Assembly: GCA_019429425.1 (NCBI GenBank)
Contig: JAHYIU010000007.1
Coordinates: 1 to 53,858, forward strand
Direction of reading: 5' to 3'
Source of the DNA: Candidatus Syntrophosphaera sp.
Lineage (GTDB): Bacteria > Cloacimonadota > Cloacimonadia > Cloacimonadales > Cloacimonadaceae
Length of the DNA stretch: 53,858 bases
The translations under genes and the position numbers were made by a program. Below, one piece after another: positions 7,772 through 18,046 of the stretch (positions within the stretch are counted from its first letter, which is position 1; every line of letters begins with the position of its first letter). The notes beneath the pieces are model-generated. The model was not told the DNA's origin. It was given only the letters and a program-made list of their open reading frames with translations, and searched no databases.

Positions 7772-8256
7772 AGCCACCTCCACGAATTATTGCATACGCG
7801 GGTATACTGGTTGCATCTTCATAATCGATAAAAAGCAGAAAGGCCTTTTATGTCAAGGAGTTTTTTAGTCAAGATATGCCACCCCCTTTTGCCGACGCTG
7901 AGATGGTTTCGGTTATACAGGGAGTCCGGAAATTCCACTTTCCCACCCATGGCTCCCCTTATCAATACGGTGTCAATACGGACTCATTACGGACAAAGTC
8001 CGTAATGAGTCCGTATTGATAGCGTAATGATAAGGAGGGCGAAGGGAAAAATGGGTTGCAGATATAGAGTATCAAGTGAAATTGCAAATAGTATCACTTT
8101 CGTTGCAAATCGCTGTTTTTGGTGAGACCCCAGTATCAAGGTCCACATCCATCCTTGAAGTGATCTGTATACTCGGTGACGTTGGGTATTTTGCCACCCC
8201 TTCATGTCGTGGATGAAAACCTAACCTACTTGATCTGCAAGAAAGCCATAATTAAC
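7772..8256. other. Gene-free stretch between the Fn3-like gene and tmRNA
   Basis: About 490 bp with no convincing gene. It carries the 89-bp palindrome (7949-8037). Short open frames here have no ribosome-binding site. From 8070 to 8145 there are loose repeats of 'AGTATCA' with 'TTGCAAAT', too degenerate to classify. Confidence 0.6.
7949..8037. repeat. 89-bp palindromic dispersed repeat, copy 1
   Basis: The sequence is a near-perfect hairpin. Two arms of about 42 bases meet at an AAA loop (around 7995-7997 on this strand). Each arm is built of three imperfect 11-bp units of the type 'ATCAATACGG / ACTCATTACGG'. The reverse complement of this block recurs at 51013-51101 with two mismatches in 89. 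No open reading frame lies inside. The form is that of a MITE or REP-like palindromic unit. Confidence 0.85.
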
Positions 8257-8311: not shown

Positions 8312-8663
8312 GGGGGTGACATGGTTTCGACAGGGAATCAGAGTGTGAGAGATGCATGCCGGAGATGCTGTCCTCTCCGTTATCAAGCAGCAAACAAATC
8401 TAATTGCAAACAACAATTACTCCTTAGCAGCGTAAGCTCGCTAACGTTCAACCGTCCCGCGCCGCCGGGGATGGCTTGGGCGTCGCAACAGTGCGGCCGC
8501 TCCGGGTCCGAGAGCTCATAAGATCCGGCTAAGACCATGAGCCCTGGCCCCGGCGGGTCTGATTGTCTTTTACCGCCGGGTCCGAGATCAAAGACAACTA
8601 AGCATGTAGATTCACTCATGATCGGCTCTTTGGACGCGGGTTCGATTCCCGCCACCTCCACCA
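8312..8663 (+). ncRNA. ssrA: transfer-messenger RNA (tmRNA)
   Basis: The 5' end GGGGGTGACATGGTTTCGAC pairs with the 3' end ...CACCTCCACCA, forming the alanine-tRNA-like acceptor stem with encoded CCA. The T arm GCGGGTTCGATTCCCGC is intact. A tag frame lies at 8406-8435: GCA AAC AAC AAT TAC TCC TTA GCA GCG TAA, giving ANNNYSLAA, ending in the usual LAA degron. tmRNA rescues ribosomes stalled on broken mRNAs and tags the nascent chain for proteolysis. Length (352 nt) is normal. Its 3' end is next to the start of an A+T-rich gene cluster; tmRNA genes are common landing sites for islands, but no integrase or repeated 3' end was found. Confidence 0.95.
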
Positions 8664-8816
8664 GCTTTGGCTACTGGTTTTATAGGGTAATGGGCCAATT
8701 CTGCTATTAGTTAACCCTGAATATTGCGTGTTCATTGATCATTACAGTAACCTTGCTGCTTATGGGATTGAAAAAAAGAATTGACAGATTCGAGCAGCAG
8801 AATTATAAGTCTTATT

Positions 8817-10640
8817 ATGCGAAAGATAATAACAGCAAAGAATGGTCCTTTAGTTTTCATAAACCCGAAGGAAATTACTGAATCCAGCGGGAATAAATTT
8901 TCCGTTGATAAACCTTCTGCAGCTTTTTGCCGTTGCGGACATTCAAATAGCAAACCCTTTTGTGATGGAACTCACGGGAAAATCGGCTGGACAAGCGAAA
9001 AACGAGAGGATCGACAACCTCGAAAAGTTGATGATTACAAGGGACAAAAAATCACAATACATGATGATCGTGGAATTTGCGCCCATGTTGGTTTTTGTAC
9101 TGACGGACTTCCCAAAGTATTCCGGATGGGAGTAGAACCCTGGATCGATCCTGATGCCGAGACGGTGGAAAAAATCATCGCAACCATTAAAAAATGTCCT
9201 TCAGGCGCATTGAGTTATTCGATTGACGGTGTAAAATACGACAAATTTTCCACTCAACCCGAAATAGTGGTCACGGAAAACGGGCCATATTTCATTAAAG
9301 GCAGCATTGAGCTCGAGGATGATGACCATCCAGAATCGGAAGAGCATTATGCCCTTTGCCGCTGTGGGAATTCCCAAAACAAACCATTTTGCAACGGACA
9401 ACACTGGCACAGCAAATTCCGCGATGATGGCATAGCCAAAGATGTTGGCCTGAACGAAAACGAAAAAGTGGCCGAAATACAGAAACTTGCTCAAACAGGC
9501 AAAAGCGAAAACTCATCCATGTCAACCTTGCGCGAATATCCCACTTTGGATACGCTGGTTTTTAAAGGTGCGCAATTGCATAAAATGCCGCTCAATGAAG
9601 ATATTCAAGTCAATACTAAAACCATTATCGGTAAAACAGCCAAACATCCTTTGGAATTGGATATGCCGTTTTATGTATCGCACATGTCATTTGGTGCCCT
9701 GTCGCGCGAAGCAAAAATTGCCCTGGCAAGAGGTTCATCGCTTGTTGGAACGGCAACTTGCTCCGGCGAAGGCGGTTTGCTGCCTGACGAGCGTAAAGCT
9801 GCAAAGAAATTCATTTACGAACTTGGCACTGCCTCATTCTCCCACAAAGACGATTCCATCAAGCAAGCCGACGCCGTGGAGATCAAAATCGGCCAGGGAG
9901 TAAAACCAGGTTTGGGCGGACACCTTCCCGGCAACAAAGTTACCGCTGAAATTGCCAAAATTCGCGGACTTGAAAAAGGTGAAGACAGTGTATCACCCGG
10001 ACGGTTATCGGGTGTGGAAAATTTGGACGACCTGAAAAAAATGGTAGCCCACATACGCCAGATTACAGACGGAAGACCCGTGGGCATCAAATTCGCTTCA
10101 GGCCATATTGAAGAAGATCTTGAATTCGCTCTGCAGGCCGAACCCGATTTTATTACCATTGATTGCCGCGGCGGAGCCACAGGTTCTTCACCCAAGTTCC
10201 TGAAGGACAATGTTGGCGTGCCGCCCGTGTTTGCAATTCGACGTGCCCGGAAATACCTGGATGCAAGAGGAAGTACTGTAACACTCTGTATTACGGGAGG
10301 CTTCCGCAATAGCGCTGATATTGCCAAAGCTCTCGCCCTCGGAGCAGATGCCGTTGCTCTGGCCACCGCATCTTTAATATCCATAGGCTGCATACAGGCA
10401 AGAGTTTGTCACACAGGTACCTGTCCGGCAGGGATAACCACCCAAAATGAACAACTGCGCCAACTTTTCGATCCCGAAAACGGTGTGAGAGGTTTTGTTA
10501 ATTTTTTCACTGGCGCCAATAATGAGCTGAAAGTATTTGCGCGCACCAACGGAATCAAAGATGTTCATAACTTCTGTGTAACTGATCTGCTTACCGACAG
10601 TGTTATCGTTTCGCAATTTACTGATATTCAGCATATATAA
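8817..10640 (+). CDS. CDGSH-[4Fe-4S]-CDGSH-FMN glutamate synthase-like fusion
   Basis: 607 aa from the ATG at 8817. A TTG at 8781 would add 12 residues, and neither has a strong ribosome-binding site. Order of domains: CDGSH zinc-finger-like [2Fe-2S] site (Cys38, Cys40, Cys49, His53); divergent single-cluster ferredoxin (Cys88, Cys94, Cys127 in KKCPSGALSY); second CDGSH site (Cys181, Cys183, Cys192, His196); then a complete FMN-binding glutamate synthase barrel from about residue 240 (SHMSFGALSREAKIALARGS, IKIGQGVKPGLGGHLPG, IDCRGGATGSSP). The GltS [3Fe-4S] triad is kept as C-x5-C-x4-C (CIQARVCHTGTC). There is no glutamine amidotransferase domain, so it cannot release ammonia from glutamine itself. 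It shares its N-terminal module with the next gene, 17 bp downstream. Substrate unknown; a redox role in sulfur or amino-acid chemistry is inferred from neighbours. Confidence 0.85.
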   Translation: MRKIITAKNGPLVFINPKEITESSGNKFSVDKPSAAFCRCGHSNSKPFCDGTHGKIGWTSEKREDRQPRKVDDYKGQKITIHDDRGICAHVGFCTDGLPKVFRMGVEPWIDPDAETVEKIIATIKKCPSGALSYSIDGVKYDKFSTQPEIVVTENGPYFIKGSIELEDDDHPESEEHYALCRCGNSQNKPFCNGQHWHSKFRDDGIAKDVGLNENEKVAEIQKLAQTGKSENSSMSTLREYPTLDTLVFKGAQLHKMPLNEDIQVNTKTIIGKTAKHPLELDMPFYVSHMSFGALSREAKIALARGSSLVGTATCSGEGGLLPDERKAAKKFIYELGTASFSHKDDSIKQADAVEIKIGQGVKPGLGGHLPGNKVTAEIAKIRGLEKGEDSVSPGRLSGVENLDDLKKMVAHIRQITDGRPVGIKFASGHIEEDLEFALQAEPDFITIDCRGGATGSSPKFLKDNVGVPPVFAIRRARKYLDARGSTVTLCITGGFRNSADIAKALALGADAVALATASLISIGCIQARVCHTGTCPAGITTQNEQLRQLFDPENGVRGFVNFFTGANNELKVFARTNGIKDVHNFCVTDLLTDSVIVSQFTDIQHI

Positions 10641-10657
10641 GTACCAGGAAAAGATGT

Positions 10658-13258
10658 ATGAAAGAAAATAAAGCAAGTATCAAACCTCAGAAGAACGGAC
10701 CGCTGATAGTAAAGAACCTTGATAAATTCACCAATTCAAGGAATGAAGCGATCGAGATAAAACCTATAATGGTTTTATGCCGTTGCGGAGGGTCAAAAAA
10801 TAAGCCGTTTTGTGATCAAACTCATGCCAGCATAGGTTTTTCCGACGAACGAAGCGAAACTCGTGTACCTGATAGAAAAGACACCTACAAAGGCAGAAAT
10901 ATAACTATTCACGACAACCGCGGTATATGCTCTCACGCCGGCTTCTGTACCGATAACCTTTCCAGCGTTTTCCGCATGGGCAAGGAACCATGGATTGATC
11001 CTAATGGCGCTGATGTGGAGGACATCAAGCTTGTCATTAAAATGTGCCCCTCAGGCGCGCTATCATATACGGAAAACAACCTGGAAACTAATGATTTCTC
11101 AAACGACGAGGAAATACACATCAGAAAAAACGGCCCCTATAACGTACGGGGCGGTATCGTGATCGAAAACGTAGACTTGGGCGATGGTGCTTCAAAAGAG
11201 CACTACACACTTTGTCGTTGCGGGCATTCAGGAAATAAACCCCGCTGCGATGGTACACACTGGTACGCGGCATTTAAAGACGATGAGGGTAAAACCATTT
11301 CTGCCGCTGCACGTAAAACAGAACAGCAAGCACCCGAATGGGTGAAAGTGGCTCAGACTGATGAATTAATGAACGGACAAACCAAAAAACTGAACTTACA
11401 CAATCAGCAGATACTGCTATCGCGGGTTGATGATAAATACGGTGCAATCGAGGGGATTTGTTCACATCAAGGCGGGCCGCTAATTGATGCCAGGATTGAA
11501 GCCAAGATCATTCGTTGCCCCTGGCACGGACATCCTTTTGATCCCCTGAGCGGAAAATCCTTGGGCAACGATGCCAACCTTAAAACTTACAAAACGGATG
11601 TTCGCAGTGATGGCATATACCTGGAAATAGCAGCTCCCGAAAAATCGGCCTGGACGGTAAGCCATGTTCTGGCTGAAACATTTGTTAACTGGGGTATCAA
11701 GCATGTTTTTGGTATGGTCGGGCATTCCAACCTCGGTATTGCGGAAGCTTTTCGTATTCAGGAAGAAAAAGGGAATATCAAATACATTGGGATTCGCCAC
11801 GAAGGAGCGGCAGCTTTTGCAGCGTCAGCTTATTCCAAAATTTCGGGCAAACCCGCAATCTGTTTTTCTATTGCAGGACCAGGCGCCACCAACCTGCTAA
11901 CCGGATTGTGGGATGCTCATATAGACCGCACACCTGTTCTGGCCATTACTGGACAGATTAATACTCAGTTTTTAGGCCCTGGTTCCTTTCAGGAAATTAA
12001 TTTACCGGCAGCCTTTCAAGCTGTTGCGCCGTTCAGCAAAATTGTTATGCCCGACAGCAATCACGCAGCGCTGGCTTCTTTAGCTCTTAAAAATGCCATT
12101 GTTCAACGCAATGTTTCGCATCTGATCGTTCCGGACGATGTTCAAACGCTCGATGCCGGAACCCAGGCACCGGGCGAACCTGATGGGCGGCTTTCCGATA
12201 CTTGTATCGCTCCAGCCCAGGATGCTGTGAATCTCGCCATGTACCGCATTTGGCGAACCCGAAAACCAGCTGTTATCGTTGGCTATGGAGCCAGAAATAG
12301 CATGCCGGAAATTATCGAATTTGCCGAAAAGCTCAGGGCACCCGTATTGACGACTTTCAAGGCCAAGGGGCAGATTTCCGATTCACATCCTCTTGCAGTT
12401 GGTGTATTGGGAAAAAGCGGCACACCTCTTTCCGCCCACTTTATGAATACCGCGGATTTGCTCATAGTATTTGGATCATCCTTTTCTCAACATACCGGTA
12501 TTGACCAAAGCAAGCCTATTATTCAAGTGGACAATGAACAAATGGCACTGGCAAAATTTCATGCCGTTGAGAATCCCATCTGGGGCGATGCAGGGATCAC
12601 TGCCAGATTATTCATCGAGAAATTGGCAAACTATTCACTATCAACAATATCAACCGAGCAAATTGCTGCCAGTAAAGCAGAGTGGAAAGCCAAGAAAATT
12701 GATATGGCTGCAAAGATCGGCACAAATGGGGTGAATTCAAGATTCGTCATTAATGAACTTAGCCGTTTACTGCCCGATAATGCCATCGTTGCGCTTGATG
12801 TTGGGAATAGTACTTATTCATTCGGAAGGTATTTTGAATGCAAAGGCCAGCGGGTTATCTTGTCAGGCTATCTCGGCAGCATCGGCTTCGCATTCCCCGC
12901 AGCCATGGGCGCTTATTTTGCCATGCCCGGTCGTCAAGTGGTTTCGGTTAGTGGCGATGGTGGCTTCGGTCAATACATGACCGAGTTTAACACGGCCGTT
13001 TTGTATAATATGAATATTACGCACATATTACTGAATAACAACGAATTGGGCAAAATATCAAACGAACAACGCGAGGATAAGATCCCGGTCTGGCAAACAA
13101 GATTAAACAATCCGAATTTTGCTGATTATGCCAATAATTGTGGGGGATTAGGTATCCAGGTTACAAAAAGAGCTGATTTGGATCATGCTGTTCGCAAAGC
13201 CCTGGCTTACAATGGTCCCGCGTTGGTGGAAATTATTACCGACCCGCTTCTTACTTAA
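10658..13258 (+). CDS. CDGSH-[4Fe-4S]-CDGSH-Rieske-ThDP enzyme fusion
   Basis: 866 aa; ATG preceded by AGGAAAAG. Residues 1-210 repeat the module of the upstream gene: CDGSH site (Cys41, Cys43, Cys52, His56), one-cluster ferredoxin (Cys91, Cys97, Cys130), CDGSH site (Cys186, Cys188, Cys197, His201). Residues about 225-325 are a Rieske [2Fe-2S] domain with ICSHQGG (Cys268, His270) and CPWHGHPFD (Cys287, His290). Residues about 330-866 are a full thiamine-diphosphate enzyme of the acetolactate synthase/pyruvate oxidase type: RHEGAAAFAASAY (activating Glu), SIAGPGATNLLTGLWDA, and the ThDP/Mg motif beginning at GDG766 and ending NNNEL (about 793-797). It would decarboxylate a 2-oxo acid and pass electrons to the Fe-S chain. 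No FAD-specific motif was identified. The combination is unusual; the substrate is not known. Confidence 0.85.
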   Translation: MKENKASIKPQKNGPLIVKNLDKFTNSRNEAIEIKPIMVLCRCGGSKNKPFCDQTHASIGFSDERSETRVPDRKDTYKGRNITIHDNRGICSHAGFCTDNLSSVFRMGKEPWIDPNGADVEDIKLVIKMCPSGALSYTENNLETNDFSNDEEIHIRKNGPYNVRGGIVIENVDLGDGASKEHYTLCRCGHSGNKPRCDGTHWYAAFKDDEGKTISAAARKTEQQAPEWVKVAQTDELMNGQTKKLNLHNQQILLSRVDDKYGAIEGICSHQGGPLIDARIEAKIIRCPWHGHPFDPLSGKSLGNDANLKTYKTDVRSDGIYLEIAAPEKSAWTVSHVLAETFVNWGIKHVFGMVGHSNLGIAEAFRIQEEKGNIKYIGIRHEGAAAFAASAYSKISGKPAICFSIAGPGATNLLTGLWDAHIDRTPVLAITGQINTQFLGPGSFQEINLPAAFQAVAPFSKIVMPDSNHAALASLALKNAIVQRNVSHLIVPDDVQTLDAGTQAPGEPDGRLSDTCIAPAQDAVNLAMYRIWRTRKPAVIVGYGARNSMPEIIEFAEKLRAPVLTTFKAKGQISDSHPLAVGVLGKSGTPLSAHFMNTADLLIVFGSSFSQHTGIDQSKPIIQVDNEQMALAKFHAVENPIWGDAGITARLFIEKLANYSLSTISTEQIAASKAEWKAKKIDMAAKIGTNGVNSRFVINELSRLLPDNAIVALDVGNSTYSFGRYFECKGQRVILSGYLGSIGFAFPAAMGAYFAMPGRQVVSVSGDGGFGQYMTEFNTAVLYNMNITHILLNNNELGKISNEQREDKIPVWQTRLNNPNFADYANNCGGLGIQVTKRADLDHAVRKALAYNGPALVEIITDPLLT

Positions 13259-13339
13259 TCTAGGATAGCGAATTTTAATGAATAGCATGAGAAATAATGT
13301 TCAAAGGATTATAAACTCAAATGACAAGCGAGGAAAAAG

Positions 13340-14629
13340 ATGAAAATTATATCAACCCAAGAGCTACGCTCACTAATAGAAAAGAATAACGTGAAAATAA
13401 TCGATGTGCGTCCCGTGGATGCCTACAATGGATGGCAGTTACAGAGAGAAAAACGTGGCGGACACATCAAAGGGGCAAAATCATTGTCGGACAAGTGGAC
13501 AGACTATCCGAACTGGATCGATATTGTTCGCCAAAAAAACATTTCACTTGATGATGAATTGGTGATCTACGGCTATACAAGCGAAGGAACGCAAAACGTG
13601 GCAAAAATGTTTCAAAAGTCAGGTTATAATAATATCTCTGTGTATGATTCGTTTTTATCTGAATGGGTGATGAACGAAGAATTGCCCATGGACTACCTTC
13701 CGAATTACAAAAATCTGGTTCCGGCCGAATGGGTGAAACAGCTCATTTCAGGTGCAAGGCCGCAACATTACAACAATGATAAATATATAATTGTCCATGC
13801 CCATTATCGCAACCGCGACGCCTATTTGAGCGGACATATACCCGGCGCTGTAGACATGGACACACTGGCGCTGGAAGCCCCCGAAACATGGAACCGCCGC
13901 TCCCCGGAAGAACTCAAGGCTGCCCTCGAAGCGCATGGTATCACTGCCAACACCACCGTGGTCCTATACGGAAAATTCATGTTCCCGGATAATAACGATG
14001 AATTTCCTGGCAGAGCGGCTGGCAATATCGGCGCGATCCGTTGTGCCTTGATCATGATGTATGCCGGGGTAAAAGATGTCAGGATCATCAACGGAGGATT
14101 TCAATCATGGCATGACGCAGGATATCAAGTGGATACCGATGATTTGCCGAAAAAACCGATTGCCGATTTTGGGGCAATAATTCCACAACATCCTGAATTG
14201 ATCGTGGATATTGACGAAGCCAAACTAATGCTGAAGGCCACTGATGCAGAATTGGTTTGCGTGCGCAGCTATCCCGAATACACTGGCGCGGTCAGCGGAT
14301 ATAATTATATCAAAGTTAAAGGCCATATACCAGGAGCGATATTTGCAGATTGCGGAAGCGATGCCTATCATATGCAAAACTACCGCAATGTTGACAACAC
14401 CATCCGTGAGTTTCATGAAATCGACCAAATATGGAGTAATTTAGGAGTCACTCCCGACAAACACCTGGCATTTTACTGTGGAACAGGTTGGCGGGGCAGC
14501 GAAGCCTGGTTCAATGCGTGGTTGATGGGTTGGCCCAGGATTTCCGTTTTCGATGGAGGTTGGTTTGAGTGGAGCAATGATCCTACGAATCCGATCGAAA
14601 CAGAAATACCACAGAAATATTTGCGGTAG
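13340..14629 (+). CDS. eanB: EanB-like trimethylhistidine sulfurtransferase (three rhodanese domains)
   Basis: 429 aa. Three rhodanese domains: about 1-120, 125-275 and 280-425. Only the third has an active-site cysteine: Cys380 in FYCGTGWRGSE. The equivalent loops of domains 1 (YGYTSEGTQ) and 2 (YGKFMFPDNNDE) have none. Chlorobium EanB, which converts hercynine (N-trimethylhistidine) plus polysulfide to ergothioneine without oxygen, is a multi-rhodanese protein. From memory, it uses one C-terminal cysteine (Cys412, in a CGTGWR loop) and Tyr353. At the same offset of 32 this protein has Tyr321. An EgtD-type methyltransferase gene two genes downstream (EanA) supports the call. A plain thiosulfate or 3-mercaptopyruvate sulfurtransferase is the alternative. 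ATG with GAGGAAAAAG upstream. Confidence 0.78.
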   Translation: MKIISTQELRSLIEKNNVKIIDVRPVDAYNGWQLQREKRGGHIKGAKSLSDKWTDYPNWIDIVRQKNISLDDELVIYGYTSEGTQNVAKMFQKSGYNNISVYDSFLSEWVMNEELPMDYLPNYKNLVPAEWVKQLISGARPQHYNNDKYIIVHAHYRNRDAYLSGHIPGAVDMDTLALEAPETWNRRSPEELKAALEAHGITANTTVVLYGKFMFPDNNDEFPGRAAGNIGAIRCALIMMYAGVKDVRIINGGFQSWHDAGYQVDTDDLPKKPIADFGAIIPQHPELIVDIDEAKLMLKATDAELVCVRSYPEYTGAVSGYNYIKVKGHIPGAIFADCGSDAYHMQNYRNVDNTIREFHEIDQIWSNLGVTPDKHLAFYCGTGWRGSEAWFNAWLMGWPRISVFDGGWFEWSNDPTNPIETEIPQKYLR

Positions 14630-14633
14630 ATCC

Positions 14634-16004
14634 ATGCTTAATTATGCTGCTATTATAATAGGTTCGGGACAAGCTGGCACACCGTTGGCTTTTAAATATG
14701 CCTTAAACAAAAAGAAAGTGGCTTTTATCGAAAAAAAGCATTTTGGAGGGACTTGCCTGAATGTTGGATGCACTCCAACCAAGGCATATGTGGCAAGCGC
14801 TAAAAGGGCTTTTGATATCCAGCGTGCTGAAACACTTGGCATTGGCGTACCCACAGATTCAAAAGCGAATCTCGATAAGATCAAAGCACGCAAGGACGCG
14901 CTCATCCAAAAATCGGTTAACGGGCTTGCTTCATCACTTGAAGGGAGCCAATACATTGATGTTTATAAAGGTGAAGCACGGTTTGGCGGCCCCAAGGTTG
15001 TTGAAGTGAACGGCAAATCGCTTACTGCTGAAAATATATTCATCGATGTGGGCGCAAGGGCCAGAATCCCTGAAGGTTTTGAAAATGTAGATTACCTGAC
15101 CAATGAAGATATTTTGGGACTTACGGAAATCCCTGAACATCTTTTGATCGTGGGCGGAAGTTACATAGGCCTCGAGTTTGGACAAATGTTCAGGCGTTTT
15201 GGGAGCAGAGTCACCATAATTGAAAAAAACGACCGTTTGATAGCATATGAAGATGAAGATGTTTCGGAAACCATCCAGGAGATCCTCGAGGAAGAGGGCA
15301 TCGAATTCAGGTTCAATTCTGACTGCATTGGGGCATCTCAATCCGCGCCAGGGCATATTAAGGTTAAAACGGACTGCGATGGCGCTGGGGATGAAATTTT
15401 AGGAACGCATCTTTTGCTTGCTGTAGGACGCGTACCCAATACTGATCTACTGAATCTGGAAGCTGCGGGCATCAAAACCAACGCCAGAGGCTATATAGTG
15501 GTGGATGATCGCCTGCAAACCAATATCGAAGGTGTTTACGCTTTGGGCGATTGCAACGGGAAAGGCGCGTTCACGCATACTGCCTATAATGATTATCAAA
15601 TTGTTTCAGCAAATATACTTGAAAACGGAAACCGGAAAGTGACTGACCGAATTCAAACCTACGCATTGTTTATCGACCCACCCCTGGGACGGGCAGGCAT
15701 GACCCTGGCCGCAGCCAAAATAGCCGGTAACAAGGTAAAAACAGCCGAGTATCAGATGGCAAACGTTGCCCGGGCCCGTGAAAAAGGAGAAACCAAAGGA
15801 TTTATGCGCATCATCATCGATAGTGATACCGACAGAATTCTGGGTGCTTCAATCTTGGGTGTGGGTGGAGATGAGTCGATCGCAAGCATTTTGAATGTGA
15901 TGTATGCCGATAAACCATACACGCTAATTCGTGACTCGGTGCATATCCATCCCACGGTTTCCGAGCTGATACCGACCATGCTGGAAAAAACGAAATATGA
16001 GTAA
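14634..16004 (+). CDS. FAD/NAD(P) disulfide oxidoreductase (MerA/Lpd-like)
   Basis: 456 aa from the ATG at 14634, 4 bp after the rhodanese gene; an upstream in-frame start lies inside that gene and is rejected. FAD motif GSGQAG at residues 10-15. The redox-active pair Cys41/Cys46 lies in FGGTCLNVGCTPTKAYV. The NAD(P) motif is LLIVGGSYIGLEFGQM. The second FAD motif is VYALGDCNGKGAFTHTAYND. The dimer-interface base His439-Pro-x3-Glu444 is in HIHPTVSELIP. The family includes lipoamide dehydrogenase, mercuric reductase and glutathione-type reductases; the extra metal-binding cysteines of MerA are absent at the C-terminus. Its place between EanB and EanA suggests it reduces a persulfide, polysulfide or disulfide linked to ergothioneine sulfur insertion, but this is inference. 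Confidence 0.85.
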   Translation: MLNYAAIIIGSGQAGTPLAFKYALNKKKVAFIEKKHFGGTCLNVGCTPTKAYVASAKRAFDIQRAETLGIGVPTDSKANLDKIKARKDALIQKSVNGLASSLEGSQYIDVYKGEARFGGPKVVEVNGKSLTAENIFIDVGARARIPEGFENVDYLTNEDILGLTEIPEHLLIVGGSYIGLEFGQMFRRFGSRVTIIEKNDRLIAYEDEDVSETIQEILEEEGIEFRFNSDCIGASQSAPGHIKVKTDCDGAGDEILGTHLLLAVGRVPNTDLLNLEAAGIKTNARGYIVVDDRLQTNIEGVYALGDCNGKGAFTHTAYNDYQIVSANILENGNRKVTDRIQTYALFIDPPLGRAGMTLAAAKIAGNKVKTAEYQMANVARAREKGETKGFMRIIIDSDTDRILGASILGVGGDESIASILNVMYADKPYTLIRDSVHIHPTVSELIPTMLEKTKYE

Positions 16005-16146
16005 ACCAAATTTGCTGGAACCATTTCCCGGTTTATCCTGTTTGCTGCCGATGGCTGGATGTTATGCCCTTTCCTCGCACTTTTCCTTGGTTGGAGTTCC
16101 CAAGGCGGATATCCTGATCAATGGTTTTGTATATGATGCATTGTAA
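15997..16146 (+). CDS. Possible 49-aa small protein between flavoprotein and EanA
   Basis: An ATG overlapping the end of the flavoprotein gene opens a frame of 49 codons: MSKPNLLEPFPGLSCLLPMA, then GCYALSSHFSLVGVPKADIL, then INGFVYDAL. It ends inside the 5' part of the EanA gene in another frame. Two cysteines and several hydrophobic residues are visible; I recognise no family. The tight overlap on both sides suggests a translated link in the operon. It could equally be a non-coding spacer or the decayed start of a longer protein. Confidence 0.35.
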   Translation: MSKPNLLEPFPGLSCLLPMAGCYALSSHFSLVGVPKADILINGFVYDAL

Positions 16147-17137
16147 AGAGAACCTCGAGATTTGCAGTGACCAAATAGTAATTGAAGACTACCTTCAAGA
16201 GCTTGATATAAGTACCATTAGAAATGATATTATCTTGGGATTGTCGGCACAAGACAAGCACATTTCCAGTAAATATTTCTATGATGAAAAGGGCTCTGCA
16301 TTATTTGAGAAAATAACCCTGTTACCCGAGTATTATCCAGCACATTGCGAAAAGGAGATCCTTCGAAAATTGGACATCAGCTTTATTCCCGATTTCAAGG
16401 ATTTGAACATCTGGGAGCTGGGCAGTGGAGACCATACCAAAATATCATTGATAATTGATCGTATCCCCGTGCGCCACCAAAATTCCCTAATCTATCATCC
16501 CGTTGACATCAGTAGATCAGCTATGCAGCTTGCTGCAATCAAACTGCTTGAAATATATCCGGATATCAGGATCTGCGGTATTGTCGCTGATTTTATGCAC
16601 CAGTTGGACGTAATATCTCATGGAAGTAATTGCCTTTTATGTTTTTTGGGTGGCACAATTGGCAATTTTACCTTACAAGAAAGGTCGGATTTTCTAGCTA
16701 ACATGCATCATATCATGAACGATGGCGATTTTTTTCTGCTGGGTGTCGATACCGTTAAAAGCCGGCAGGTGCTTTATGATGCTTATAACGACAAACAGGG
16801 CATAACCGCTGCTTTCAATCTCAATATTCTAAACGTTGTCAACACACTGTGCAAGACTGATTTCAACTCGGAGGATTTCGAACATATCGCTTTATTCAAT
16901 GAAGATAAAAAACGAATTGAGATGTATCTTGAAGCGCGGACTGACATTTTGGTAAAAAGCCCTTTTACACCGAACGAAATCAAGATTAGAAAAGGGGAGC
17001 GAATCCACACCGAGAATTCCCATAAATTCGATGATGAGATGATTATGCAAATGGTTGAGACCTCCGGATTTCGTGTTTCAAAGGTTTTTAGCGATGATAA
17101 CGCCTGGTTTAAAGTGATCCTATTCCACAAGGCTTGA
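16121..17137 (+). CDS. eanA: L-histidine N-alpha-methyltransferase (EgtD/EanA)
   Basis: 338 aa from the ATG at 16121; ATGs at 16133 and 16136 are also in frame. It belongs to the EgtD family, which makes hercynine from histidine with three SAM. Conserved parts: KYFYDEKGSALFEKIT, LPEYYPAHCEKEIL, the SAM loop ELGSGDHTK, FLGGTIGNFT (Asn182), DAYNDKQGITAAFN (Tyr222) and ERIHTENSHKF (Glu298, Ser300). The spacing Asn-40-Tyr-76-Glu-2-Ser is exactly that of the substrate-binding residues recalled for mycobacterial EgtD (Asn166, Tyr206, Glu282, Ser284). No EgtB (oxygen-dependent sulfoxide synthase) gene is near; the rhodanese gene upstream gives the anaerobic route. Methylation yields S-adenosylhomocysteine, which ahcY at 20819 would remove. 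Confidence 0.9.
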   Translation: MVLYMMHCKENLEICSDQIVIEDYLQELDISTIRNDIILGLSAQDKHISSKYFYDEKGSALFEKITLLPEYYPAHCEKEILRKLDISFIPDFKDLNIWELGSGDHTKISLIIDRIPVRHQNSLIYHPVDISRSAMQLAAIKLLEIYPDIRICGIVADFMHQLDVISHGSNCLLCFLGGTIGNFTLQERSDFLANMHHIMNDGDFFLLGVDTVKSRQVLYDAYNDKQGITAAFNLNILNVVNTLCKTDFNSEDFEHIALFNEDKKRIEMYLEARTDILVKSPFTPNEIKIRKGERIHTENSHKFDDEMIMQMVETSGFRVSKVFSDDNAWFKVILFHKA

Positions 17138-17162
17138 ATTATCTTAATCCGAGAGGAGGCCA

Positions 17163-17456
17163 ATGAACAGGCCCAAAGTAATTCTATATGTTTGTGCTTC
17201 AGTTGATGGGAGAATCACGTTTGGGCCCAACACCACCATGTTTGACATCTATAAACAGCCTGAGCTTTATCAAATGCTGATGAATGAGGAAGAGTGGAAC
17301 AGCTTTTCCAAGGCGGTTTTTGCCCTTCACAAGCCTGACATGTATCTTGAGGGGAGCAACATGCTTGTGGCTGAATGCGAGGAACTGAAAGAGCTGCCCA
17401 AATACGGCGGCGGCATTAATGGCCTGTATGAGGATTTTTTCCCGCTGACATTGTGA
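17163..17456 (+). CDS. RibD-type reductase, N-terminal piece
   Basis: 97 aa; GAGAGGAGG lies just before the ATG. MNRPKVILYVCASVDGRITF is the first strand and loop of the RibD C-terminal/dihydrofolate-reductase-like fold that binds NADPH and reduces pyrimidine intermediates in riboflavin synthesis. It ends at TGA where relatives, as I recall them, continue without a break, and the next frame picks up the fold at once. The GTG of that frame overlaps this stop (GTGA, 17453-17456). Either a true split gene with coupled translation or a one-base frameshift (mutation, sequencing error or programmed). Confidence 0.65.
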   Translation: MNRPKVILYVCASVDGRITFGPNTTMFDIYKQPELYQMLMNEEEWNSFSKAVFALHKPDMYLEGSNMLVAECEELKELPKYGGGINGLYEDFFPLTL

Positions 17457-17932
17457 ACCGCCCGGGAAGGAAAACATGGACGGCTGTGGTTGACGGTAGA
17501 GGCAGGTTCAGGAATGGATACACGGCGAACACCGATGATCCGGAAACTTACATGGTCCACTTGACGGCTGAAACTGCTCCACCTGAATATCTGGCATTCT
17601 TGCGTTCCAGAAACATACCCTATCTTGTGGCAGGAAAAGGAAGGGTGGATCTTTCTGCAATGTTGCGCAAGGTAAAGGAAAAACTCAGGGTGGAAACAAT
17701 CGTGACCAGCTCCGGTGGGCGTTTGAGCGGAGCTCTGATCAGGAGTTCCCTTTTGGACGAGGTTAACATTCTTCTCAGCCCAATTGTCATTGGCGGTTTT
17801 TCCACTCCAACCCTCTTTTCCTCCCCGGATCTTAGCTGGCCATCGATCATGCCAAACAAACTCGCCCTCATGGAAACCAAAACATTGATGAATGACAAGG
17901 TTTGGCTAAGGTACAAGGTGGTCTATGATTAA
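17453..17932 (+). CDS. RibD-type reductase, C-terminal piece
   Basis: 159 aa starting at a GTG. It continues the fold: GRKTWTAVVDGRGRFRNGYT, PEYLAFLRSRNIPYLVAG, TIVTSSGGRLSGALIRSSLL, DEVNILLSPIVIGGFSTPTL. The pattern TSSGGxLxGALxxxxLxDE is that of RibD_C reductases (5-amino-6-ribosylamino-uracil reductase type). Together with the 97-aa piece the length (about 256 aa) matches a single-domain reductase. A deaminase domain and other riboflavin genes are absent, so the substrate is open. It is the last gene of the A+T-rich cluster; rpsO follows after about 115 bp. Confidence 0.7.
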   Translation: MNRPGRKTWTAVVDGRGRFRNGYTANTDDPETYMVHLTAETAPPEYLAFLRSRNIPYLVAGKGRVDLSAMLRKVKEKLRVETIVTSSGGRLSGALIRSSLLDEVNILLSPIVIGGFSTPTLFSSPDLSWPSIMPNKLALMETKTLMNDKVWLRYKVVYD

Positions 17933-18046
17933 GAAAGGGCAACCACCTTGCTTGAAGCTTATCCGAATTGGCGGGGCTGAGCAGAAAATGCTTTACAAAT
18001 AACCCTGTCCCAAAATGCTGGGTACAAAATTCATCTGGAGGATGAA

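Follow-up and report, generated by a model that had tools for sequence, protein, structure and literature searches.

The same CDGSH-ferredoxin-CDGSH module on two predicted redox enzymes encoded side by side in an acquired ergothioneine operon of Candidatus Syntrophosphaera

Background

Type 7 CISD proteins, in which CISDs are conjugated to DUF1271, were described from 31 species; in their subtype CDC, a DUF1271/Fer4_19 domain sits between two CDGSH domains (Lin et al. 2011, PMC3174974). In type 5 CISD proteins, a glutamate synthase domain is joined to a tandem CDGSH (PMC3174974), and a 2018 phylogeny records combinations of CDGSH with Fer4_19, Glu_synthase, Ferritin-like and Rieske_2 domains (PMC5859297). 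Anaerobic ergothioneine synthesis by EanA and EanB is known from Chlorobium, and an unrelated ergothioneine synthase, MES, has a molybdopterin plus cysteine-desulfurase architecture (PMC9516567). Our literature search, with most subscription journals outside its scope, found no description of a Rieske-ThDP fusion or of a CDGSH domain beside EanB.

Here we analyse a stretch of 53,858 nucleotides from Candidatus Syntrophosphaera sp. (contig JAHYIU010000007.1), hereafter the window, in which two adjacent genes, A and B, begin with the same module and continue into different catalytic heads.

Results and discussion

Gene A (8817–10640, + strand, 607 aa) and gene B (10658–13258, + strand, 866 aa) have their ATG codons at 8817 and 10658 and are separated by 17 bases on the same strand. 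In both, Pfam finds zf-CDGSH, Fer4_19 and zf-CDGSH, each at 1e-22 or better. Module A (8817–9440, +; residues 1–208) and module B (10658–11296, +; residues 1–213) are homologous over their full length, with 104 of 196 aligned residues identical (53%), and the alignment scores 569 (BLOSUM62) vs 34±5 in 300 shuffles (maximum 55), so that the similarity reaches well past the metal motifs. The ligands come in identical order with spacing that differs by a few residues at most: C38, C40, C49 and H53 in the first CDGSH domain of A (C41, C43, C52 and H56 in B), C88, C94 and C127 in the ferredoxin-like part (C91, C97 and C130), and C181, C183, C192 and H196 in the second CDGSH domain (C186, C188, C197 and H201). 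The first-pass annotation had claimed, for a range (8817–11290) that correctly extends from where module A starts to where module B ends, that the adjacent genes carry one module with near-equal ligand spacing on two unrelated heads; the Pfam domains, ligand positions and 53% identity bear this out.

All eleven ligands are invariant in an alignment of 63 modules from bacteria and archaea, as is a twelfth residue, H90, within the C-x-H-x3-C of the ferredoxin-like part. AlphaFold2 predicts the module to be one rigid unit (mean pLDDT 94.8, pTM 0.89). In the model, the first CISD resembles the type 4 CISD 3tbm (Z 6.5, 1.7 Å over 61 residues), the second the type 3 CISD 3tbo (Z 4.5, 1.4 Å over 46 residues), and the ferredoxin-like part matches small ferredoxins, among them a [3Fe-4S] ferredoxin from Pyrococcus (1siz). 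A fold search of the PDB with the whole module matched single domains and no chain spanning the entire module. Judged by its domain order, its 3Cys-1His ligands and the type 4-like CISD fold of the model, the shared stretch is a type 7 CISD of subtype CDC. Both window proteins have the domain order and ligands of the described CDC proteins (PMC3174974) and differ from them in fusing the module further, to glutamate-synthase (GltS) and Rieske-ThDP heads, in adjacent genes. In the full-length model of A, which was built from 26 sequences with four plasmid-record rows left out of the alignment, residues 209–214 between module and head have pLDDT below 50, as a tether would predict.

The head of A (9453–10637, +; Glu_synthase, Pfam 5e-97) is a predicted glutamate-synthase-type FMN/3Fe-4S enzyme without a glutamine amidotransferase domain. 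It keeps the equivalents of E903, K966, Q969, K972 and R992 of ferredoxin-dependent glutamate synthase (Fd-GltS), five of the six residues checked, with His at the equivalent of Q978; in Fd-GltS these residues bind 2-oxoglutarate and FMN. In A they are E318, K357, Q360, K363 and R383, which are invariant in 24 aligned relatives together with C525, C531 and C536, the putative ligands of the 3Fe-4S cluster. Thus the FMN/2-oxoglutarate site and the 3Fe-4S cysteines of a glutamate synthase are both present, whereas the equivalog model NF008730 gives 147 bits vs a cut-off of 1047. A shares with Fd-GltS the FMN barrel, the cluster cysteines and five active-site residues, but it lacks the amidotransferase domain and has its own tethered putative electron adapter. 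Like type 5 CISD proteins, it carries CDGSH N-terminal to a GltS FMN domain, with heads of the same family (L173 of Vibrio, L146, L163). It differs in having Fer4_19 between its CDGSH domains, where a type 5 protein has a type 6 tandem CDGSH, ~20 residues apart, fused directly to GltS; moreover, the head of A does not branch with those of type 5 proteins but beside rubredoxin-tagged heads.

B continues from the module into a Rieske [2Fe-2S] domain (11336–11572, +; residues 227–305, Pfam 2e-15) and then into the TPP_enzyme N, M and C domains of a ThDP head (11630–13255, +). The closest solved relative of this head is E. coli pyruvate dehydrogenase [cytochrome] PoxB, with which it aligns end to end (248 bits), and it has the catalytic Glu and the GDG...N motif of PoxB-type enzymes; RHE (380–382) and GDGG (766–769) are invariant in seven relatives. 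The best NCBIfam models are pyruvate oxidases, although all curated cut-offs are missed (NF006377, 404 bits vs 742). On these sequence features, B is assigned as a Rieske plus pyruvate-oxidase-type thiamine enzyme. It belongs to a coherent CDC-Rieske-ThDP family, the other bacterial members of which are 55–78% identical to it. Unlike PoxB, it carries Rieske and CDC N-terminally, and it stops where the alignment stops, at residue 527 of 572 of PoxB, so that the C-terminal tail of PoxB is absent.

The first-pass annotation called the module probably duplicated, and copying of the module between neighbours in this operon lineage would suit two adjoining genes with identical module order. A single clade of A and B was not rejected by the AU test either (p 0.39; operon members alone, p 0.14). 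At 53%, however, the A and B modules are no more alike than either is to its best-matching stand-alone modules from other phyla (55–59% for A, 56–58% for B). In the module tree, A clusters with other GltS-fused modules (support 96/80), and B with other ThDP-fused modules, proteobacterial ones included (95/96). Aligned as DNA, codon positions 1, 2 and 3 are 63, 72 and 37% identical, and only 46 of the 104 identical residues use the same codon, which points to an old relationship with no trace of a fresh copy. A recent local duplication is thus unlikely, and we regard copying within the operon lineage as highly improbable; the two modules may nevertheless share an old common origin.

The annotation had not connected the A/B pair with the operon that contains it, an ergothioneine cluster. 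Downstream of B lie an EanB homologue (13340–14629, +; phmmer to the 6ktv family, 684 bits, 9e-205), a rhodanese-type anaerobic ergothioneine synthase that matches the characterised Chlorobium enzyme over residues 4–425, its full length, and has the loop CGTGWRG at C380; an FAD-containing pyridine nucleotide-disulfide-type oxidoreductase (14634–16004, +; ATG at 14634; NF004992, over cut-off); and an EgtD/EanA histidine N-alpha-methyltransferase (16121–17137, +; TIGR03438, 333.7 bits vs a cut-off of 290.9). As in Chlorobium (PMC9516567), EanB and EgtD homologues occur together, but here A, B and the FAD oxidoreductase are added, and the SufS and SufE genes of some other EanB operons are missing.

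The operon is part of a horizontally acquired insert. The block (8664–17990, the right end being approximate) begins at the tmRNA gene (ssrA; 8312–8663, +; ARAGORN), its insertion point, and occupies ~9.3–9.4 kb between tmRNA and rpsO, with a G+C content of 45% vs 55–57% for any 9.3-kb stretch elsewhere in the window. In a congener (G007), rpsO follows ~125 bp after tmRNA, and the module and EanB are absent from all 12 congeners examined. A search between tmRNA and rpsO for attL/attR direct repeats and an integrase found none. Another congener (G005, locus L269) has a different insertion at the same junction, which contains GGGTTAAT-type repeats together with a small gene of ~120 aa, whose product resembles a four-helix-bundle intervening-sequence protein; this second insertion suggests that the junction is an insertion hot spot.

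Across relatives, the heads of A and B carry exchangeable adapters. GltS heads occur with CDC, CDC plus Rieske (L018, L041), CDC plus tandem CDGSH (L180), tandem CDGSH (L173), Rieske (L126, L178, haloarchaea) or rubredoxin (L176, L184, L288). The GltS head tree requires ten changes of adapter label, and the nearest heads to A outside its CDC clade bear a rubredoxin-like domain. ThDP heads carry CDC-Rieske, Rieske or rubredoxin, and in Methanococcoides (L008) a rubredoxin-ThDP gene lies beside two stand-alone CDC genes. Rubredoxin and Rieske domains are known electron carriers. Where a genome or plasmid has both partners, the adapters are usually of one kind (CDC/CDC, Rieske/Rieske or rubredoxin/rubredoxin): 16 of 19 match, vs a mean of 9.9 in shuffles, of which 53 in 100,000 reach 16, for pairs that were hand-listed, with related genomes counted as independent and Rieske being the common kind in Bacteroidota. 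One mismatch is clear (G571, rubredoxin-GltS with CDC-Rieske-ThDP).

The two enzymes also co-occur. Among 296 Bacteroidota genomes, GltS heads with such an adapter (redox-tagged GltS) are found in 7 of 8 genomes with Rieske-ThDP vs 40/288 others (p=1.2e-5; p=6.6e-5 without the genome by which the sample was chosen), and in 80 genomes of a second phylum the counts are 4/5 vs 7/75 (p=1e-3). In proteobacteria, redox-tagged GltS is present in 2/5 CDC-Rieske-ThDP genomes vs 10/43 controls (p=0.37). The genes lie side by side or close together in the window, in L005, L016, L178, L237 and L238, and on haloarchaeal plasmids (L167, L168); L178 (with one 0.9 kb gene between), L237, L238, L167 and L168 are outside ergothioneine clusters. 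The first-pass annotation had read the shared module as docking to a common partner or as a shared electron wire, as in a two-enzyme complex, a reading to be given up if each gene frequently occurred without the other. In 40 of the 47 Bacteroidota genomes having redox-tagged GltS, Rieske-ThDP is absent, and 3 of 5 other genomes with CDC-Rieske-ThDP, all proteobacterial, lack redox-tagged GltS. A and B are therefore not obligate partners; of that interpretation, the functional link between the heads survives, indirectly, through the 7/8 and 4/5 associations and the 16/19 adapter matches, and constant pairing is refuted.

The same adapter on A and B, usually matched in relatives, suggests wiring to one carrier or to each other. 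We place about even weight on the reading that A and B share a route for electrons, to which each connects through the same interchangeable, tethered adapter. From the sequences, we infer electron transfer, its direction, the substrates and any contact between A and B as follows. The module would be a rigid electron adapter on a flexible tether, in which one 3-Cys ferredoxin-like cluster lies between two NEET-type [2Fe-2S] sites. B would be a soluble enzyme of pyruvate-oxidase type; it would decarboxylate a 2-oxoacid and pass the electrons out via its Rieske domain and adapter, not to a quinone. Electrons would pass from the 2-oxoacid to the ThDP/flavin of B, to Rieske and CDC, and then to a carrier used by both enzymes or straight to the CDC of A; they would next reach 3Fe-4S/FMN and reduce an imine or 2-oxoacid; the simplest reaction of A would be that of 2-oxoglutarate plus ammonia. 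Matching adapters would let A and B use one carrier or each other, and 2-oxoacid oxidation would drive the reduction without NAD(P)H. The reverse electron direction or a membrane donor is possible.

More tentatively, and at clearly less than even confidence, redox-tagged GltS and Rieske-ThDP may be the halves of a previously undescribed two-enzyme system, in which the oxidation of a 2-oxoacid is coupled to reductive amination or some similar reduction and NAD(P)H is not needed. The partners would keep the same plug-in adapter through swaps. If so, it would point to an NAD(P)H-independent partnership and offer a natural experiment in modular electron transfer, in which NEET-ferredoxin-NEET, Rieske and rubredoxin adapters are exchanged and yet tend to match. 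It would also give a testable role to type 7 CISD proteins, a group common to many bacteria and archaea that has no established function in the literature covered, and it marks out a linked gene set beside two unrelated ergothioneine synthases in anaerobes.

The setting of the pair might suggest a role in ergothioneine metabolism instead, for example in supplying reduced sulfur, recycling oxidised ergothioneine or converting it further. In the window and in L005, L006 and L016, A-type genes adjoin EanB or B-EanB; L126 has a Rieske-GltS gene at a distance of two genes from EanB. In L018 (10001–16600), a CDC-Rieske-GltS gene directly precedes that of a 1131-aa molybdopterin plus cysteine-desulfurase protein, the architecture of MES, and then EgtD. 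But L006 has no B, and redox-tagged GltS is missing near EanB in 12 of 14 Bacteroidota loci and in both from other members of the window's phylum, several EanB operons carrying SufS and SufE in place of a GltS-type gene; at the genome level, EanB is borderline with GltS (5/14 vs 42/282, p=0.05) and shows no association with ThDP. The ergothioneine link is therefore recurrent but loose. Pairs without EanB nearby (L178, L237, L238, haloarchaea) also speak against such a role, and the chemistry of EanB and MES (PMC9516567) would seem to need no added electrons. We consider this explanation unlikely.

Alternatively, A and B might be redox enzymes that work independently and whose genes frequently move together on stress or accessory islands. 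The block in the window is an insertion, each gene is also found alone, and the haloarchaeal plasmid copies sit with MerA-type reductases, peroxiredoxin, DsrE and SRPBCC genes. Against this, adapter kinds match beyond shuffling, and the association in two phyla includes partners on separate contigs of one assembly (G260, G268, G324, G339, G502), which shared cargo alone would not predict; we judge such independence improbable to the same degree as the ergothioneine role. NEET domains reportedly hand over entire clusters in addition to electrons (PMC5859297), so that the module might be an iron-sulfur cluster store or donor, or a redox sensor regulating two unrelated enzymes, with no electron path. 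That rubredoxin and Rieske domains replace it on the same heads makes this very unlikely. A shared electron route through matching adapters remains the reading that we prefer.

Further observations concern the surroundings of these genes. A was also considered as sulfur supplier of EanB, a role weakened by the SufS/SufE genes of other EanB operons and by the desulfurase domain of the L018 synthase itself. In L138–L141, SufS and SufE genes follow EanB-EgtD operons and are likely to provide anaerobic ergothioneine synthesis with a cysteine-sulfur source of its own. Members of the FAD oxidoreductase family are present at 7 of 22 ThDP loci vs 0 of 27 GltS-only loci (p=0.002), and those of haloarchaea are MerA-like. 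In some Bacteroidota clusters, a membrane protein of ferric-reductase type with its own Rieske domain is present as well, along with two unnamed proteins. This set recurs beside Rieske-GltS or Rieske-ThDP (L252:5313–7937, L237:7533–10184, L248:11129–12942) and comprises the ferric-reductase-type protein, with Rieske at its C-terminus; a membrane-anchored protein with the motif DxKCYxGVMxPG...HKxCAxRCxxGGxPPV; and, in L252 and L237, a soluble protein with the motif WPHHFD, the latter two having no Pfam match.

At the right end of the insert, a RibD_C/dihydrofolate-reductase-like gene (17163–17932, +) is split over two frames, with its ATG at 17163, a stop near 17456 and the remainder from about 17453; it is either a pseudogene or an assembly error. 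A long imperfect inverted repeat (7946–8046; 49-nt arms, 86% complementary, 3-nt loop) sits between FGE-sulfatase-type genes and tmRNA. At 8781–8817 (+), TTGACA and TATAAG are spaced by 17 nt, and TATAAG ends 7 bases 5' of the ATG of A. With boxes this close and no obvious ribosome-binding sequence, A may have a leaderless transcript; in a consensus promoter scan of the block, matches were no more numerous than in shuffles.

Beyond A and B, a scan of 84,980 genomes gave at least 543 confirmed relatives of the module, the best 80 of which are mostly stand-alone proteins of ~220 aa. In others, the module is joined to GltS, to Rieske-ThDP, to a ferritin-like domain, to a TPMT-type methyltransferase or to a DUF420-like domain. 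In a Nitrososphaera genome (L031:2579–3835), the CDC module is fused to a TPMT/TehB-type methyltransferase. In Eremiobacterota proteins (L049, L050, L057, L058, L062, L064), it is C-terminal to a part of 450–630 aa, which in L050 matches the Ferritin-like family PF12902.
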